Under the pieces are notes generated by a model, which made no database searches, was not told the origin of the DNA, and saw only the letters and a list, made by a program, of their open reading frames with translations. Below are positions 100 to 35,897 of a stretch of 35,897 bases of DNA, in pieces. Positions within the stretch are counted from its first letter, which is position 1, and the number at the start of each line of letters is the position of its first letter. The DNA lies in IMG/VR virus record IMGVR_UViG_3300025101_000009, positions 1 through 35,897 of that record; one strand, given 5' to 3'. Made by a program: the position numbers and the translations under genes. The DNA comes from a virus.

Positions 100-1129
100 T
101 AACAGTGGAACAAATGCCATAACTGGTGTTGGTTTTCAACCTCAACTGGTTTGGGCAAAGAGCAGAACAGTTGCCTATCATCACGAATTATATGATGTTA
201 TTAGGGGGTCAAGCAGAATGTATTCCAGTTCAACTACTGGTGACTCTGCTGGCTCAATAACATCATTTGATAGTGATGGTTTTACGCACCAAAGCGGTAG
301 CGTAGGCACTAATGCTAATGGCGATGGCATTGTTGCTTGGAACTGGAAAGGCGGCGGTAGTTCCAACACTTTTAATGTTGATGGCACTGGTTATAGCTCT
401 GCATCCGATGCTGGGCTAAGTGGAGGTGACATAACTCCGACAGCAGCTTCTATAAACACTACTTCTGGGTTTAGCATAATTGGATATTCTGGGAACGGGT
501 CAGCTAACCAGACAATAAAACATGGTTTATCTAGCCCACCAGAGTTTATAATTATTAAAGATAGGGATTCAAATAGTAACAACAACCAATGGCAAGTATC
601 ATCGTCTGTTATCGGTGATGATTATTCTTATTTATCTCTAACCAGTGCTTTTGCTGGCACAGGGCAGATGATACCTACATCTGGAGAACCAACAACTTTA
701 ACAATAGGGCGTGATTCGACCGTATTAACAAACGAAAGCGGTGATAGATTTATTATGTACTGTTTCCATTCGGTCGAAGGCTACAGCAAGGTTGGCAAAT
801 ATATAGGTAATTCTAGTGATATCGACGGCACTTATGTATATACCGGATTTGCCCCCACTTTTGTGATGGGCAAAGTAACAACTCAAACTGGTCGATGGTG
901 GATGTATGATTCTGTACGTTCACCGCGAATGAATAACACGATTGGAACTGGTGCATATTTACACGCACAGTCAACTGCTACAGAAAGCTCAGATACCGGG
1001 GTCAATGCTGTGCAACTACTTAGTAACGGTTTTAAAGTAAATTCAACAAATGCGGAATGGAATAGCAGCAGTCATACTTATTTTTATTTAGCCATCGGTA
1101 ATACTTTTAAATACGCGAACGCGAGATGA
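1..1129 (+). CDS. Tail-fibre / receptor-binding protein, C-terminal part (continues from 34399)
   Basis: This is the C-terminal portion of the protein that starts at 34399; the frame is open from base 2 through the repeat without a stop. Joined across the circle the gene is 2,529 nt and encodes 842 residues. A start at the TTG at 89 is not needed. The junction region reads GYKALCASNIPEPTIGPNSG, a linker I recognise from tail-fibre proteins of marine phages that follow an SPRY-like domain. The remaining ~350 residues are Ser/Thr/Asn/Gly-rich and beta-rich, with repeated Trp and Tyr patches (WNWKGGG, YCFHSVEGYSKVGKY), consistent with a trimeric fibre tip. Base composition is distinctly AT-rich (for example about 28% GC by hand count in 541-600), unlike the structural genes before 34399. 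Function as receptor-binding protein is inferred from position and domains. Confidence 0.85.
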   Translation, partial: ALCASNIPEPTIGPNSGDDQQTDDFFNTVLYTGNSGTNAITGVGFQPQLVWAKSRTVAYHHELYDVIRGSSRMYSSSTTGDSAGSITSFDSDGFTHQSGSVGTNANGDGIVAWNWKGGGSSNTFNVDGTGYSSASDAGLSGGDITPTAASINTTSGFSIIGYSGNGSANQTIKHGLSSPPEFIIIKDRDSNSNNNQWQVSSSVIGDDYSYLSLTSAFAGTGQMIPTSGEPTTLTIGRDSTVLTNESGDRFIMYCFHSVEGYSKVGKYIGNSSDIDGTYVYTGFAPTFVMGKVTTQTGRWWMYDSVRSPRMNNTIGTGAYLHAQSTATESSDTGVNAVQLLSNGFKVNSTNAEWNSSSHTYFYLAIGNTFKYANAR

Positions 1130-1142
1130 ATAGGGGATAGAG

Positions 1143-1718
1143 ATGCCTTGGAAATATGCGGATAAAACTTTGCGAGAAGGCAGAGGCTGGACTGATGACA
1201 ATGGCTTCAAGCATCCTTACAATTGGGCGTCTGCTTGGACTGATACTGATAAAAAAAACTGGGGTGTTACTTGGGAAGACCCACCAGCATCAGAGGCTGC
1301 GTTTGACAACAGATTTTATTGGGGCAGACAGACTGATGGCTCACTGATTGAGCGTAGTCTGACAGATGTTAATGTTTTTGATGAAGATGGCAAAGCTGTC
1401 AATGATCCTATAACTGGACAACAAATGGTAACACTTGGGCTCAAGTCTATTTGGGTTGAACAAACAAAACGTACAGCAAATAACAAGCTTTCGCTTTATG
1501 ATTGGATGGTCACACGCAAAGCTGAGAAATCAACTGCAATACCTACAAATGTCCAAACATACAGAGATGCAGTTCGTACTAAATGTGCAGAGATAGAGAC
1601 AGCTTTGAATGGTGCATCTGATTTGGCTGCGTTCATGGCGTTGTTTGAAGATGAACGTAATTCAGATGGCACAGTAAAAACCATTGCTAAAATTAACGAC
1701 TGGCCTGATGAAATCTGA
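1143..1718 (+). CDS. Tail-fibre-associated protein / putative tail assembly chaperone
   Basis: A 191-residue soluble protein starting 13 nt after the tail-fibre gene, with an AGGGGA ribosome-binding site. The N-terminal half is Trp-rich (PWKYADKTLREGRGWTDDNG, then WASAWTD and KKNWGVTWEDPP); similar proteins follow fibre genes in marine podoviruses. The last ~75 residues are helical (DWMVTRKAEKSTAIPTNVQTYRDAVR and onward) and resemble the XkdW/DUF4376-type region of phage tail-fibre assembly proteins. Position directly behind the fibre gene supports a role in folding or attaching the fibre. Family assignment is by eye only. Confidence 0.6.
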   Translation: MPWKYADKTLREGRGWTDDNGFKHPYNWASAWTDTDKKNWGVTWEDPPASEAAFDNRFYWGRQTDGSLIERSLTDVNVFDEDGKAVNDPITGQQMVTLGLKSIWVEQTKRTANNKLSLYDWMVTRKAEKSTAIPTNVQTYRDAVRTKCAEIETALNGASDLAAFMALFEDERNSDGTVKTIAKINDWPDEI

Positions 1719-4087: not shown

Positions 4088-4193
4088 TTGGGTACGTTTT
4101 GGGTACGCTTTTACAGCAGCTCACAGCAGTTTGTGGCAGTTTGTACCCACCTAAAACCCCAGAAAACCAACGGTATTACCCCTAAATATCGCA

Positions 4194-4238
<45 letters not shown>

Positions 4239-4269
4239 CTAATTTCATAATAAATTCAATACATTAAAC

Positions 4270-4302
4270 GCCCCCAGCCTTGATTGGCCGGGGGCTTTTT
4301 TT
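4270..4302 (+). terminator. Rho-independent terminator
   Basis: GCCCCC and GGGGGC close a hairpin (4270-4295) around AGCC TTGATT GGCC with one A-C mismatch, followed by seven T residues. It sits 32 bp after the tRNA-Asp CCA end. After integration it would lie behind a restored tRNA gene at one end, and in the free phage it insulates the integrase unit from lysis-region transcription. Confidence 0.82.
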
Positions 4303-4342
4303 GCGTTTGGGTACACTTTTGGGTACGTTTTTGTTGCATTGT

Positions 4343-4687: not shown

Positions 4688-5845
4688 ATGCCTAAAAAAG
4701 TAGTCACAAGCTTGAAGGTTTACGAGCGCAAAGACCGCCCCGGCGTGTGGACATATGACGCGCGCCCGATTGGTGGCAAGAAACTATCTTTCAAGTCGAA
4801 AGATGATGCCACAATCGCAATGGTTGAGGCCGTCAACAATTACAATAACGGCACTATCGTTGCGCCGGTCAAGCCAACGAGTGTGAAGTCAGCCGCTGAC
4901 AAATTTTACAACGAACAAGAAGGCCGGGTTGTCGCAAAGAAAATCAGCAAGTCTCACAAAGATGAGATTGTGCGCGGCATAAAGTTTTGTCTTGCTATCT
5001 CTATTGATGGGCGCGCGCTGGCAAAGCACAACATATCTGAGTTGATGCAGACAGCGACAAGAGGGCCGATAGGACTTGCAATTATTTCTGGCATAGAGGC
5101 TGAGCAAAAATCCAAAGCAACCGCTGAGAAGCGCGTCAAAGCTGTTAAGATGCTATTCAATTATGCAGTAACGCAGGGCTGGGGTCAGGTCAATCCACTG
5201 GATAAAATGACACTTAGCCTTGATACTGACTTTACTGATGACCGTGCGCCACGCATTCAGCCAGAGGTCATTCAGTCTGTGGTTGCAAGCTTGAATGATG
5301 AGAGCCTACTGGTCAAAGCAATGGCGCTCACTGCCATAGCATCTGGCATCCGGCAGGGTGAGCTGCGCGCGCTGCCTTGGCGCAATGTCAACTTTGAGGA
5401 TTGCACAATCAAGATTGACCGTGCCATCAAGCATCAATGCAAAGGCTTGGGCAGAACAAAGACCAAGCGCGGCAACCGCATAGTGCCGGTTCCAGCAGAG
5501 GTAATCGCTATTCTGCGCCAGCTTAAAGTATCGTCAAAGTATTCTGGCGCTGAGGATTTTGTTTTTGCCAATGACGCTGGAAATTTCCAAACTAAGAAAA
5601 CTTTCCCTAAAATTATGGATCGTATCTGCAAGCGCGCTGGTGTGCCGCTGATGCTGTGGGGTGACTTCAGACATTTCTTTGCTAGCGTACAGATTAGCTC
5701 ACTGGGTGAGGATTGGGGCGAGGTGGCTGCACTGATGGGCCACGCTAACACCGCGTTCACCTACAGGCAGTACGGTCACTATGTAAAGAATGTAGAAAAG
5801 CAAAAGCAAGTTAGTGGCGCGACAGCCGCTGCCATGGGTATTTAG
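4688..5845 (+). CDS. int: Tyrosine recombinase / phage integrase
   Basis: A 385-residue integrase. Residues 1-60 form the arm-binding type N terminus (a short beta domain, LKVYERKDRPGVWTYDAR), about 65-175 the core-binding helical domain and about 185-385 the catalytic domain. Catalytic residues visible are Arg222 (GIRQGELRALPW), a Lys in KTKRGNR near 258-260, Arg328 and the preceding region in GDFRHFFAS, His352 (LMGHANT) and Tyr362 (RQYGHY). In box II the usual HxLRH reads DFRHF, so the first His is replaced by Asp326, a known variation. It catalyses attP x attB recombination at tRNA-Asp and, with a directionality factor, excision. A strong ribosome-binding site (GGAAGGGAG) precedes the ATG, and a terminator follows directly. 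Confidence 0.96.
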   Translation: MPKKVVTSLKVYERKDRPGVWTYDARPIGGKKLSFKSKDDATIAMVEAVNNYNNGTIVAPVKPTSVKSAADKFYNEQEGRVVAKKISKSHKDEIVRGIKFCLAISIDGRALAKHNISELMQTATRGPIGLAIISGIEAEQKSKATAEKRVKAVKMLFNYAVTQGWGQVNPLDKMTLSLDTDFTDDRAPRIQPEVIQSVVASLNDESLLVKAMALTAIASGIRQGELRALPWRNVNFEDCTIKIDRAIKHQCKGLGRTKTKRGNRIVPVPAEVIAILRQLKVSSKYSGAEDFVFANDAGNFQTKKTFPKIMDRICKRAGVPLMLWGDFRHFFASVQISSLGEDWGEVAALMGHANTAFTYRQYGHYVKNVEKQKQVSGATAAAMGI

Positions 5846-8751: not shown

Positions 8752-9459
8752 TTAAATGTCTATATCACTGTTTTTTAAAATCGTCACACCGCGCAATCTC
8801 TGTCGTAAACTTACAGTAATGACAGGCGTTGCGAACACCAGCTCCTGTTCTTTTAAGTGCCAACCAAGATCACCATTTACTATTTGGTAAACACCGCCCG
8901 GTTCAGGATACAGCATGCCAGCAACAAAATGTTCTGGGCCGTTCTTGCTTTCATATGGGTTTTTTAAGTAACAAAATGCCTGTCTGCCGAAACACTCTTC
9001 ATGCACATATTGTTCAAGCACTGGCTCAAGCATCACATATTCATGCGCCTTTGACCAATATGCCCATGGGCCAGTGTATTTTTTATCCATTGACCAGCTA
9101 ATGATTGCAGCTCTGTATGGTAAATTCGTGTGCGAATAAGCCCAATCTACTGATTTAAGGCTTTGTTGCATTGTTTCTTCGTTACTTACATCCAAGTGCA
9201 ATTTTCTAGATAGACCGCCATCTTTATCTAAATGACAGTGACCAATAATCGGTGTGCCTTGTGTCTCAAAAATAATTTCATAAGCGTGACAACCCAAGAT
9301 ATCTGCGTACTCTCGCGCATCTACGATAGTCATTGGCACACGCTCATGAATATGGCGTGATAGCGTTTCCGGCGTAACGCCTTTGCGTTCTGCAACAACC
9401 TTTTTTTGCAGACCACTTTTTTCAATCATCTTGTTTAAATTGTTTGGCATGTCGTTCAT
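8752..9459 (-). CDS. CI-like repressor with N-terminal HTH
   Basis: A 235-residue protein from the ATG at 9459; an upstream GTG at 9486 would lie in an operator and has no better leader. Residues ~5-55 form a Cro/CI-type helix-turn-helix (NLNKMIEKSGLQKKVVAERK, GVTPETLSRHIHERVPMTIV). The remaining ~170 residues are a separate domain that I do not recognise and that lacks an evident S24 autoprotease Ser/Lys signature, so induction may not be by RecA-stimulated self-cleavage. It is divergent from the Cro-like gene at 9545 with two predicted operators between them, and is flanked on the other side by a third, which marks it as the lysogeny regulator. Confidence 0.78.
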   Translation of the reverse strand: MNDMPNNLNKMIEKSGLQKKVVAERKGVTPETLSRHIHERVPMTIVDAREYADILGCHAYEIIFETQGTPIIGHCHLDKDGGLSRKLHLDVSNEETMQQSLKSVDWAYSHTNLPYRAAIISWSMDKKYTGPWAYWSKAHEYVMLEPVLEQYVHEECFGRQAFCYLKNPYESKNGPEHFVAGMLYPEPGGVYQIVNGDLGWHLKEQELVFATPVITVSLRQRLRGVTILKNSDIDI

Positions 9460-9469
9460 GGTAATAACC

Positions 9470-9486
9470 TTAACATTTAATGTCAC
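9470..9486. promoter_or_regulatory. Predicted repressor operator next to the repressor start
   Basis: TTAACA-TTTAA-TGTCAC matches the TTGACA-N5-TGTCAA family with two mismatches. It lies 11-27 bp upstream of the repressor ATG, where binding could autoregulate the repressor gene. It is the weakest of the five sites. Confidence 0.6.
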
Positions 9487-9544: not shown

Positions 9545-9766
9545 ATGAAACTTGATGCATATCGAAAACAAAAGGGCTGGAGCTATGTTGATTTAGCCAA
9601 GCTGACCGGGGCTTCACATGCAACTGTAGCCCGGCGCTGGTGCTTGCCGCATAGCCACCCACATTTCAAAATACCAGCTCAAAAATTTATGAACGCCATC
9701 CTAGTCATAAGTGACGGTGCGGTACAGCCTAACAGCTTTTATCAAGTCGGTATAATGGATGACTGA
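9545..9766 (+). CDS. Cro-like HTH protein
   Basis: A 73-residue protein, the first gene rightward of the switch region. It contains a compact HTH: MKLDAYRKQKGWSYVDLAKL, TGASHATVARRWCLPHSHP, with a Thr-Gly-Ala-Ser turn and an Ala-Thr-Val-Ala-Arg recognition helix. By size and divergent position opposite the repressor it is the Cro equivalent or an early regulator. The ribosome-binding site is weak (AGGG close to the ATG). It overlaps the next gene by 8 nt. Confidence 0.75.
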   Translation: MKLDAYRKQKGWSYVDLAKLTGASHATVARRWCLPHSHPHFKIPAQKFMNAILVISDGAVQPNSFYQVGIMDD

Positions 9767-10175
9767 GGATCAGTTCCAAAACTATGTGGTGCAATGGCTT
9801 GATGCGTCATTGCCCATGGGCAGCGTGTTCCATCACTCACCAAACGAGGGTAAGCGCCACATTGCTTACAAGATGCGTTTGAAAGCTGCTGGCACAAAGT
9901 GGGGCTGGCCTGACCTTGAGCTGTTTATATGTGATCACGGTTGGCATGACCCGGCTGCAAAAGGCCCGATAATGATTGAGCTGAAGCGCCCGAAAGGCGG
10001 CAAGCTGTCCGATAATCAAAAAGATATCCATGAAAAGCTGCGCTGCACTGGCACCTATGTGTTCGTTGCAAAGCGCCTGAGCCAAGTTGAGGCTTACTTA
10101 AAACCATTATTGAAGCTGCGTGAAACCGGCAAAGCATCAATCGTGCGCCAGCTCTGCGAGGTGCAGGGTGGCTGA
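9759..10175 (+). CDS. VRR-NUC domain nuclease
   Basis: A 138-residue single-domain nuclease of the VRR-NUC family (PF08774, PD-(D/E)XK fold). Motifs are HSPNEGKR (26-33), AGTKWGWPDLELF (44-56, catalytic Asp52), IELKRPKGGKLSDNQ (73-87, Glu74, Lys76 and Gln87) and GTYVFVAK. Phage members of this size occur next to replication or recombination genes and are thought to process DNA branches or ends. It is the second gene of the rightward early operon. Confidence 0.93.
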   Translation: MTEDQFQNYVVQWLDASLPMGSVFHHSPNEGKRHIAYKMRLKAAGTKWGWPDLELFICDHGWHDPAAKGPIMIELKRPKGGKLSDNQKDIHEKLRCTGTYVFVAKRLSQVEAYLKPLLKLRETGKASIVRQLCEVQGG

Positions 10176-19045: not shown

Positions 19046-20156
19046 ATGTCAACTCAAATTACAACCGCATTTGTGAACCAGTTTTCAGCAAATGTGACAA
19101 TGCTTTCACAGCAGCAAGGCAGTCTTCTGCGCGCTACTGTGGATACAGAAACTGTAAATGGCGAGAAGGCGTTTTTTGATCAAATCGGATCAGCAGCGGC
19201 AGCTCTTAGAACCACACGGCATGGTGATACACCATTGATGGAAACACCACATGATCGCCGGATGGTTACGCTGAGTGATTATGAGTATGCTGATCTCATT
19301 GATGATCAGGATAAAATCAGAATGCTCAGCTCCCCTGAGTCGAATTATGCGAAGGCGGCGGCTTTTGCATTGGGTAGATCAATGGACGATGCAATCATTG
19401 CTGCGTTCAATGCATCTGCTAAGACAGGCAAAGCTGGCACAACAAACACAGCTCTACCGGCTGGCAATATCATTGCCCATGGTTCCGCTGGTTTGACTGT
19501 GGCAAAGCTTATCTCTGCCAAGAAACTGCTTGATGCTGGTAGCGTTGATCCATCGATCAATCGTTACATTGTTGTCTCACCAGAGCAAATCGAAGATCTG
19601 TTGAACACAACATCAGTCACCAGCAGCGATTTCAACACCGTTAACTCTTTAGCGGCTTAGTAGGGCAACCTATTTCGAAAAACTCTGTGAACTCAGAGGA
19701 AGTCTCATTGAGATTATTCTGAGCCAAGCCCGGCGGTGCCGGGAAGGTGCAACGATCATCCTTGAAATAGGAGTAGGCTGGGAGCCCAGCCGAAGCGCAG
19801 AGAACCCCACTGGGGTTATGATATGATCTGATCTGCATAGCGATATGCAGCGGCGAAAGCGGCTTTGGATTAGCGATCCAAGGTGAACATAATGTAAAGC
19901 GTTAGCAACTGGAACTGTGGATTCGTTTGTCGGGTTCAAGTTCATTGTGAGCAATCGTTTAAAAGACGATGGCACATCACGCCAGTGCTATGCATGGGCT
20001 GAAGATGGAATGAAATTGGCTATTGGCAAAGATGTCAAAGCAGAGATCACCACGCGAGCTGATAAATCTTACGCAACCCAAGTCTATTATTGTGCCTCAT
20101 TTGGTGCAACGAGGATGGAGGAAGCCAAGGTTATTCAGGTGCTTTGTAACGAGTAA
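19046..20156 (+). CDS. Major capsid protein, split by a group I intron (exons 19046-19641 and 19895-20156)
   Basis: The coding sequence is join(19046..19641, 19895..20156), 858 nt, 285 residues. The ATG at 19046 follows GGAGGG at 19033-19038; an upstream GTG at 19031 is inside that leader. Exon 1 begins MSTQITTAFVNQFSANVTML and ends in NTV; the split codon is Val199 (GT|T). Exon 2 resumes KALATGTVDSFVGFKFI and ends VIQVLCNE. The sequence is typical of the podovirus HK97-fold capsid family (HGDTPLMETPHDRRMVTLSD; YEYADLIDDQDK). Unspliced RNA would stop at tandem in-frame TAG TAG codons (19658-19663), giving a 204-residue fragment lacking the last third. Frame, splice-site pairing and the restored conserved sequence all support splicing rather than a broken gene. 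Confidence 0.93.
19642..19894 (+). ncRNA. Group I self-splicing intron, ORF-less, 253 nt
   Basis: The 5' exon end CCGT pairs with the internal guide GCGG (19652-19655), placing a U.G wobble at the splice site (P1). CTTTA (19647-19651) pairs with the 3' exon TAAAG (P10). P3: CCTATTTC (19669-19676) with GAAATAGG (19764-19771). P4: CTCAG (19692-19696) with CTGAG (19719-19723). P5: TCTC (19703-19706) with GAGA (19710-19713). P6: CCCGGC with GCCGGG (19729-19743). The core strings CTGAGCCAAGCC and AAGGTGCA are classic group I Q and R elements. P7: GATCAT (19754-19759) with ATGATC (19823-19828). P8 region has two hairpins, GGCTGG/CCAGCC and AACCCC/GGGGTT. P9 is CTGCATA-GCGA-TATGCAG with a GNRA loop. 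The intron ends in G (19894). No homing endonuclease is encoded. Subgroup not assigned. Confidence 0.93.
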
Positions 20157-34399: not shown

Positions 34400-35897
34400 T
34401 GTTTAGCCCAGACAAATGGTTTACGAGTAGTAGCACTGGGTTTTATTCTAAAACTATAGGCCAATCCTTACGTTTCAATGAGGGTGACAGTCCAGTTTTA
34501 AGTAGAACACAAACTTCTGGCACGACTACGACTTGGACATTTTCTGCATGGATAAAACGAAGTCGAACAGATGGTGTTTTGCAATCTGGTGGAAATGCTG
34601 GTCAAGACCCTATTTTTTGTGTTGGTGAGAATAACACAAATGATATGCTCATTTATTTTCAACAACACGGTGCAGGTTCAGCAGATTGTTTAGATATAAT
34701 TTTCAGAGATAGCAGCAGTCTACGCGCACGTCTTGTAACCTCTAGAACATTTCGTGACATGTCATCTTGGTATCATATTCAATTAACTTGCGATTTTACA
34801 AACTCAACGCAAGGCGACCGTTTACGCTTATATGTCAATGGTGTTAGAGAGACTGCATTTAGCACAGAAACATATCCATCGGATGCAAGCCAAGTTACTA
34901 TAGTTAATAATAACTCTTACACTGCTAGACTAGGGCAATTGAGGTCAGACAGTTCTTATTTTGCTGGTTACATGGCAGAAGTGCATTTGGTTGATGGAAG
35001 CGCATTAGAGCCTACGTCATTTGGTGAGTTCAAAAATGGTCATTGGACTTGCAAAAACTATTCTGGCGGTCACGGTACTGCTGGCTGGTTTTTACCGTTT
35101 GATGATGGTAGCGCAATCGGTGACGATGAAAGTGCAAACACTAATGACTTCACCGCAACCAACCTAGCCGCCAGCGATGTAGTTTTAGATTCTCCCACAC
35201 AAAATTGGTGTACCAACAATGGCGCAATGAGGGCTAACATTACGCACTCTGAAGGCAACCTAAAGATGGTTGGCGTTGGCAACAACTATGATAATATGGC
35301 TGGTACGTTTGAGGTGGATGCTGAAGACACTGATGGATGGTACTGGGAGTATTACAGTGTTGGAAATGATACAGCCACATCAATTGGCATAGCAAAATCA
35401 AACAACGCACAATTTAATAAATCTGACCCAAGCGCACCATTTACACAAGAAAACAACGGTGAAGTTAGTTATCAAGGGAGCGGAAACAAAGCAATAAACA
35501 CTGGCTCTGTTGACCCTACTTCGTATGGAAATTCTTGGACTGCTGGCGATGTTATTAGCGTAGCTGTTAAAGCTGGGGCAGTTTACTTTTATAAAAACGG
35601 CGTAATACAAAATTCTGGCACAGCCGCCCTAACAGGAATTACAGGAAAAATTGTACCGGCTTTTGCAATTAACGGCACAAATTCTGGCATTGCTAACTAC
35701 GGTCAAGACAGCACTTTTGCCGGAGCAATAAGTGCTGGCGGCAATAGTGATGCAAACGGTCTAGGAGATTTTAAGTACACTGTACCATCTGGATACAAAG
35801 CCCTTTGTGCATCTAATATACCAGAGCCAACCATAGGGCCAAACAGCGGAGATGATCAACAAACTGACGATTTCTTCAACACGGTTTTGTATACTGG
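34399..35897 (+). CDS. Tail-fibre / receptor-binding protein, N-terminal part (continues at 1-1129)
   Basis: The frame opens with ATG at 34399 and runs off the right end, continuing at base 2 through 1129 for an 842-residue protein. Residues ~20-230 form a LamG/concanavalin-like domain: IGQSLRFNEGDSPVLSRTQT, TWTFSAWIKRSRTDGVLQSG, LYVNGVRE and YFAGYMAEVHLVDGSALEPT. Residues ~290-445 form an SPRY-like domain (GWYWEYYSVGNDTATSIGIA, YFYKNGVIQNSGTAA, GKIVPAFAINGTNSG), ending at GDFKYTVPSGYKALCAS. Both folds bind glycans or proteins, consistent with host recognition. The gene is AT-rich relative to the upstream fibre gene. A linear annotation would miss it because no stop occurs before the end. Confidence 0.88.
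   Translation, partial: MFSPDKWFTSSSTGFYSKTIGQSLRFNEGDSPVLSRTQTSGTTTTWTFSAWIKRSRTDGVLQSGGNAGQDPIFCVGENNTNDMLIYFQQHGAGSADCLDIIFRDSSSLRARLVTSRTFRDMSSWYHIQLTCDFTNSTQGDRLRLYVNGVRETAFSTETYPSDASQVTIVNNNSYTARLGQLRSDSSYFAGYMAEVHLVDGSALEPTSFGEFKNGHWTCKNYSGGHGTAGWFLPFDDGSAIGDDESANTNDFTATNLAASDVVLDSPTQNWCTNNGAMRANITHSEGNLKMVGVGNNYDNMAGTFEVDAEDTDGWYWEYYSVGNDTATSIGIAKSNNAQFNKSDPSAPFTQENNGEVSYQGSGNKAINTGSVDPTSYGNSWTAGDVISVAVKAGAVYFYKNGVIQNSGTAALTGITGKIVPAFAINGTNSGIANYGQDSTFAGAISAGGNSDANGLGDFKYTVPSGYKALCASNIPEPTIGPNSGDDQQTDDFFNTVLYT
35799..35897. repeat. Terminal direct repeat marking a circular contig (right copy)
   Basis: Identical to bases 1-99. It encodes ALCASNIPEPTIGPNSGDDQ and following residues in the same frame as the left copy, so one copy is redundant in the circular map. 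Confidence 0.93.

Follow-up and report, generated by a model that had tools for sequence, protein, structure and literature searches.

An ORF-less group IA intron in the major capsid gene of an HTVC010P-type podovirus and its candidate mobile lineage

The major capsid protein (MCP) gene of a marine HTVC010P-type podovirus is interrupted within codon 199 by what is almost certainly a self-splicing group IA intron that lacks an open reading frame (ORF) and belongs to a mobile lineage, as judged from sequence comparison. The segment, at 19642–19894 of the window (the 35,897-nucleotide stretch of viral DNA analysed here), matches the group I intron family, has a covarying fold, and lies at an exon junction for which intronless relatives provide the empty site. 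Related introns occur at several other positions in capsid genes, where they appear to have been inserted repeatedly at sites matching their guide sequences.

The interrupted capsid gene and its empty sites

The intron resides in a 35.9-kb genome with 99-base direct repeats at both termini (1–99 and 35799–35897), so the genome in the window is probably complete. Its G+C content is 47%. A tyrosine-type integrase (4688–5845; phrog_1, Phage_integrase) and a repressor-like HTH protein (8752–9486) are encoded, and this combination suggests a temperate lifestyle for this HTVC010P-type phage.

The capsid ORF starts with the ATG at 19046 and runs into tandem TAG codons at 19658–19663, and the missing C-terminus is picked up again in a different frame (Table 1). 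The 5′ exon ends with CACCGT. Joining 19046–19641 to 19895–20156 (596 + 262 bases) yields exactly 285 amino acids with Val199 at the junction, the two outcomes that, according to an earlier note on this DNA, splicing would restore. The joined product covers positions 1–284 of phrog_3437, a major head protein family (E = 5.5e-92), and each exon separately matches its own part of the family. This full-length match identifies the product as an HTVC010P-type podovirus capsid. It can be aligned over its entire length (100%) with uninterrupted pelagiphage capsids at up to 64.6% identity; these relatives, of approximately 285 residues, come from Pelagibacter phages, among them HTVC034P and HTVC010P.

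Homologous capsids thus run past the exon 1 stop, and the intronless relatives are joined at the predicted junction. The MCPs of contigs L009 and L010, which lack the insert, are 96% and 94% identical in amino acids to the spliced window MCP, and both genes read contiguously ACACCGT-CAAAG (hyphen, exon junction) exactly at this point. The L009 DNA is 91% identical and reads ttcaacaccgt-CAAAGCC, as compared with ttcaacaccgt-intron-TAAAGCG in the window. Empty sites were found in L009, L010, and L012–L017. The first base of exon 2 (19895) is T in the intron-bearing window and contig L214, and C in the nearest intronless contigs, L009, L010, and L015; T at this position lengthens the P10 pairing.

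Table 1. Positions of the capsid exons, the intron and its helices in the window
Feature	Position	Strand	Remarks
MCP exon 1 (codons 1–198 and two bases of codon 199)	19046..19641	+	phrog_3437 major head protein
ORF-less group I intron of 253 nt, from T19642 to G19894	19642..19894	+	RF00028, empty sites
P1	19638–19641 (CCGU, exon) with 19652–19655 (GCGG, guide)	+	U.G at the 5′ splice site
P10	19647–19651 (CUUUA, guide) with 19895–19899 (UAAAG, exon 2 start)	+	Continuous with P1
P2	19659–19664 with 19669–19674	+	GCAA loop; 100% paired; double-sided changes in 6/6 pairs
P3	19683–19689 with 19796–19802	+	100% paired; double-sided changes in 5/7 pairs
P4	19693–19698 with 19717–19722	+	Encloses P5; 100% paired
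P5	19703–19706 with 19710–19713	+	Inside P4; 96% paired
P6	19723–19724 with 19747–19748	+	97.5% paired
P6a	19729–19734 with 19738–19743	+	97.8% paired
P7 (guanosine-binding helix)	19754–19758 with 19824–19828	+	100% paired; pseudoknot with P3
P7.1	19759–19762 with 19769–19772	+	100% paired; group IA type insert
P7.2	19776–19781 with 19786–19791	+	86% paired; group IA type insert
P8	19804–19808 with 19812–19816	+	91% paired; double-sided changes in 4/5 pairs
P9	19833–19839 with 19844–19850	+	GCGA loop; 100% paired
P9.1	19853–19854 with 19859–19860	+	100% paired
P9.2	19863–19870 with 19876–19883	+	93% paired
MCP exon 2, including the stop codon TAA	19895..20156	+	Alone matches phrog_3437 positions 203–292

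Fold, covariation and predicted splicing

A cmscan search places RF00028 at 19632–19850 with 69.1 bits (E = 1e-15; gathering cut-off, 50 bits), the sole Rfam match in the window. Together with the two reading frames, this match, whose boundaries are compatible, bears out the intron that the earlier note had delimited from the tandem TAG codons and the second-frame C-terminus. Since the RF00028 model stops at P9, the 3′ end of the intron is not fixed by the model itself; it is set by the capsid reading frame and the empty sites, together with the terminal G and P10. No plausible gene is present in any frame of 19642–19894. Beyond the score, the segment has the P3–P8 and P4–P6 core with the P3/P7 pseudoknot, a P1 guide pairing with U.G, a terminal G, a restored product, and an empty site.

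The fold, drawn from the window sequence as P1–P9.2 including the P3/P7 pseudoknot, was evaluated on an alignment of 20 introns of the lineage, each flanked by six exon bases at either end. Standard pairs account for 97.1% of the alignment cells, compared with 32–45% when the partners are slid by one to three columns. Double-sided changes occur in 49 of the 72 pairs, as against 32.7 ± 2.5 in shuffles. The guide CTTTAGCGG at 19647–19655 pairs unbroken with CCGT-TAAAG, forming a nine-base duplex of P1 and P10 with U.G at the 5′ splice site, precisely as had been proposed. P1 is paired and ends in U.G in all 20 sequences, and three of its four pairs have changed on both sides (exon/guide combinations CCGT/GCGG, CTGT/GCAG, GGAT/GTCC, GGGT/GCCC, and TCCT/GGGA), indicating that guide and exon change together. 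In P7, C-G/U-A exchanges are seen in two pairs. P7.1 and P7.2 are located between P7 and the 3′ strand of P3, an arrangement that we take to assign the intron to group IA. The core strings, the GNRA loop (GCGA) on P9, and the terminal G noted earlier are all present; P3 consists of seven pairs rather than the eight initially counted. P2, P6a, P7.1, P7.2, P9.1, and P9.2 are additions to the structure then described.

These features outline a splicing pathway. In the folded transcript, GCGG of the guide would pair with the CCGU at the end of exon 1 to form P1, and a guanosine bound in P7 would attack after U19641. The freed exon 1 would then attack after G19894, with exon 2 held by P10, thereby joining the 285-residue frame. 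An unspliced mRNA would yield only a truncated capsid of 204 residues, so virion production should depend on splicing. Group I catalysis, its efficiency during infection, and the dependence of the phage on splicing are inferences; a helper protein could be required. A dead or artefactual insertion, caused by an assembly error or reflecting a capsid whose true end is the exon 1 stop, is extremely improbable, because the same site carries an identical intron in contig L087 and a 95.5% identical one in L214, nearly every helix shows compensatory changes, and exon 2 on its own still matches the capsid family.

Related introns and their apparent movement

A scan of capsid relatives identified L087 and L079, the latter with an 89% identical capsid and a similar intron at another place, and pattern searches directed at the core and 5′ end of the intron brought in many more. 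In HTVC010P-type MCP genes, introns follow approximately residues 54, 64, 71, 83, 146, 199, and 257, about seven positions in all, with two introns in the gene of L210 and three in that of L148; RF00028 backs all of these except the third of L148. Only three of 105 fully covered capsid genes, a sample picked by capsid motif and not by intron, are split, making introns a minority trait of this gene. Two intron types share the codon-199 junction, that of the window and another of approximately 190 nt. The shorter type was observed at L210 about 4123–4314 and L148 about 4885–5074, as well as in L273 and L284. In L289, an insert of approximately 880 nt at about codon 80 of a related MCP (about 403–1281, minus strand) encodes a LAGLIDADG_2 endonuclease; it falls below the RF00028 cut-off and was rejected as a simple group I intron.

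The exon end CCGT with guide GCGG occurs at MCP codons 64, 71, and 199, and also in MCP genes of phrog_9953 (L192), phrog_1328 (L091, L149), and phrog_1357 (L112, L147, L179). At least three MCP families besides phrog_3437 thus contain introns of the lineage, mostly having this guide and 5′ exon. The phrog_9953 intron of L192 is 82–84% identical to that of the window and is situated in an unrelated capsid gene. This gene (L192 12858–14193, minus strand) contains three group I introns, of which the middle one is window-like. The sole CCGT in the window capsid gene is the intron site, and among 157 distinct intronless relatives CCGT is found at codons 64, 71, and 199 in 3, 10, and 19 sequences, respectively.

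Several comparisons set closely similar introns against more divergent surroundings. L214 and the window share 95.5% identical introns at the same site, whereas their capsid exons are only 75% identical; the exons of L214 are 93% identical to those of intronless L015, and their window-like stretch adjoining the intron is no longer than a few to about 12 bases. The introns of L112 and L179 are 88.8% identical in genes of 66% identity and occupy sites 19 nt apart, each gene having CCGT at its own site only. L089 and L092 carry 93% identical introns at two sites of phrog_9953; the L089 contig ends short of the first site, so L089 may also have an intron there. In L191, two sister introns reside in one gene with matching guide and exon changes. 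These four cases argue for recent horizontal or ectopic moves and, as read from such comparisons, suggest that a mobile lineage entered capsid genes repeatedly at different guide-matched sites. Common descent of the CCGT introns of this MCP family from one insertion was rejected when their eight rows were constrained to a single clade (p-AU 0.003), the groups having been defined once the alignment was known; all 11 rows of the family gave p = 0.056, with many weak branches.

An MCP family lies downstream of approximately 64 of 104 lineage introns, as against approximately 26 of 108 for introns with another group I core (Fisher p = 4e-8; both counts are sums of Pfam family counts). Short IMG/VR viral contigs are probably selected for hallmark genes, and the contrast is therefore likely in part a sampling effect. 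On contigs of at least 15 kb, among the matches listed, counts read from overlapping family tables give MCP families for roughly 7–10 of 22 lineage introns and roughly 8 of 46 with the other core, and tail and ribonucleotide reductase genes appear as well. Since the contrast shrinks on these contigs, capsid specialisation was dropped as a firm claim, and a preference of the lineage for capsid genes is suggestive. A literature search, with many subscription papers outside its coverage, returned no report of a capsid hot spot for introns.

Modes of spread and known systems

The lineage may hop to guide-matched sites either by reverse splicing or by endonucleases acting in trans. The 253-nt intron has no ORF for a homing endonuclease of its own, and of 20 intron-bearing records, for the most part fragments, only two contained canonical endonuclease genes. 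The earlier proposal that an endonuclease supplied elsewhere mobilises the intron finds no support within the window genome, where six-frame searches for four families (GIY-YIG, HNH, HNH_3, and LAGLIDADG_2) gave no match; a co-infecting phage may be the source. Pfam scans of most window proteins together with these searches yielded nothing to sustain an endonuclease acting in trans from this genome; a VRR-NUC protein is encoded at 9759–10175, which is not a typical homing enzyme.

Reverse splicing is a plausible route, to which we give somewhat less than even chances. In this process, the excised intron RNA would enter a capsid mRNA at a guide-pairing site (CCGU), followed by DNA copying and recombination. 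Since no endonuclease is needed, it would permit hops to new sites that share only about 4–6 bases. The guide-matched sites, endonuclease independence, and little co-conversion that it predicts all fit the data: GCGG/CCGT recurs at non-homologous sites within and between families, CCGT is rare at the three codons in intronless relatives, endonuclease genes are scarce, and the L112/L179, L089/L092, and L191 introns show the corresponding displacements. On the other hand, a reverse transcriptase is required, and the full pathway was without direct experimental evidence as of a 2014 review (PMC3984707). The same target rule is also predicted by random DNA insertion, in which introns land anywhere and the guide-mismatched copies are subsequently lost.

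Collaborative homing, in which intronless capsid genes would be cleaved by a free-standing endonuclease of a second phage and acquire the intron during repair, is an alternative that we rate only slightly lower. It is documented for ORF-less introns in two phages (PMC3984707), the same-site transfer between L214 and the window fits it, and a LAGLIDADG_2 gene is present in the L289 insert within a related MCP gene. However, the window genome lacks a match to the four standard families searched, the tract of window-like exon bases at the L214 intron is short, and homing by itself does not explain moves to non-homologous CCGT sites. Returning to reverse splicing, a broader version appears rather unlikely as a whole: an endonuclease-free lineage residing mainly in phage structural genes, above all capsid genes, and moving by RNA-guided reverse splicing into guide-complementary sites, perhaps because capsid mRNA outnumbers all other late transcripts.

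Fungal rDNA introns resemble the window lineage in having relatives at different sites of one gene. Short guide-matched targets are a further shared trait; the fungal introns lie in nuclear rRNA genes, whereas the present lineage occupies phage protein genes. Reverse splicing has been proposed as the means by which those fungal group I introns spread (Bhattacharya 2005, cited in PMC3984707).

Capsid-gene group I introns are already known. The major capsid gene of LittleE, a cluster J mycobacteriophage, is interrupted by a likely group I intron whose splicing was demonstrated by RT-PCR and N-terminal sequencing; as in the window, the exon ends in U and the intron in G (PMC3706429). The LittleE intron differs in its length of 819 nt, its HNH endonuclease frame, its location in an actinobacterial phage, and its single site (PMC3706429), in contrast to the 253-nt ORF-less intron of an HTVC010P-type podovirus. 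The 265-nt tail-gene intron of BAKA and Optimus, which has no endonuclease, is similarly small, ORF-less, and located in a virion gene; because a 156-bp part of the LittleE capsid intron is 98% identical to it, related introns occupy different genes there too (PMC3706429). Only two sites were known in that system, as against many sites in several MCP families for the window lineage. Lactococcal phage Tuc2009 also has a capsid-gene group I intron (cited in PMC3706429), a likeness drawn from its description. What appears to be new is a mostly endonuclease-free lineage that would have invaded capsid genes on many occasions, at sites fitting its guides.

A 2025 survey describes a preference of phage group I introns for nucleotide synthesis and DNA metabolism genes, which it terms mysterious (PMC12350094). 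The present case contrasts with it in that one mostly endonuclease-free lineage is found in several unrelated capsid families, at many sites, with a four-base target. The lineage offers a tractable phage system for testing the reverse-splicing mobility of group I introns. Gene callers split such capsids, which may therefore escape marker-gene surveys of abundant marine phages. Among the nearest annotated-phage introns by DNA are those in terL of Vibrio phage R16F and in the DNA polymerase genes of Aeromonas phage MQM1 and Xanthomonas phage MK21, RF00028 members that are 69–84% identical over parts; they interrupt terminase and replication genes, whereas the window intron is in a capsid gene. 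In Vibrio phage vB_VpaM_R16F (L007, 595–3085), the terminase large subunit is annotated in five pieces with four RF00028 introns between them.
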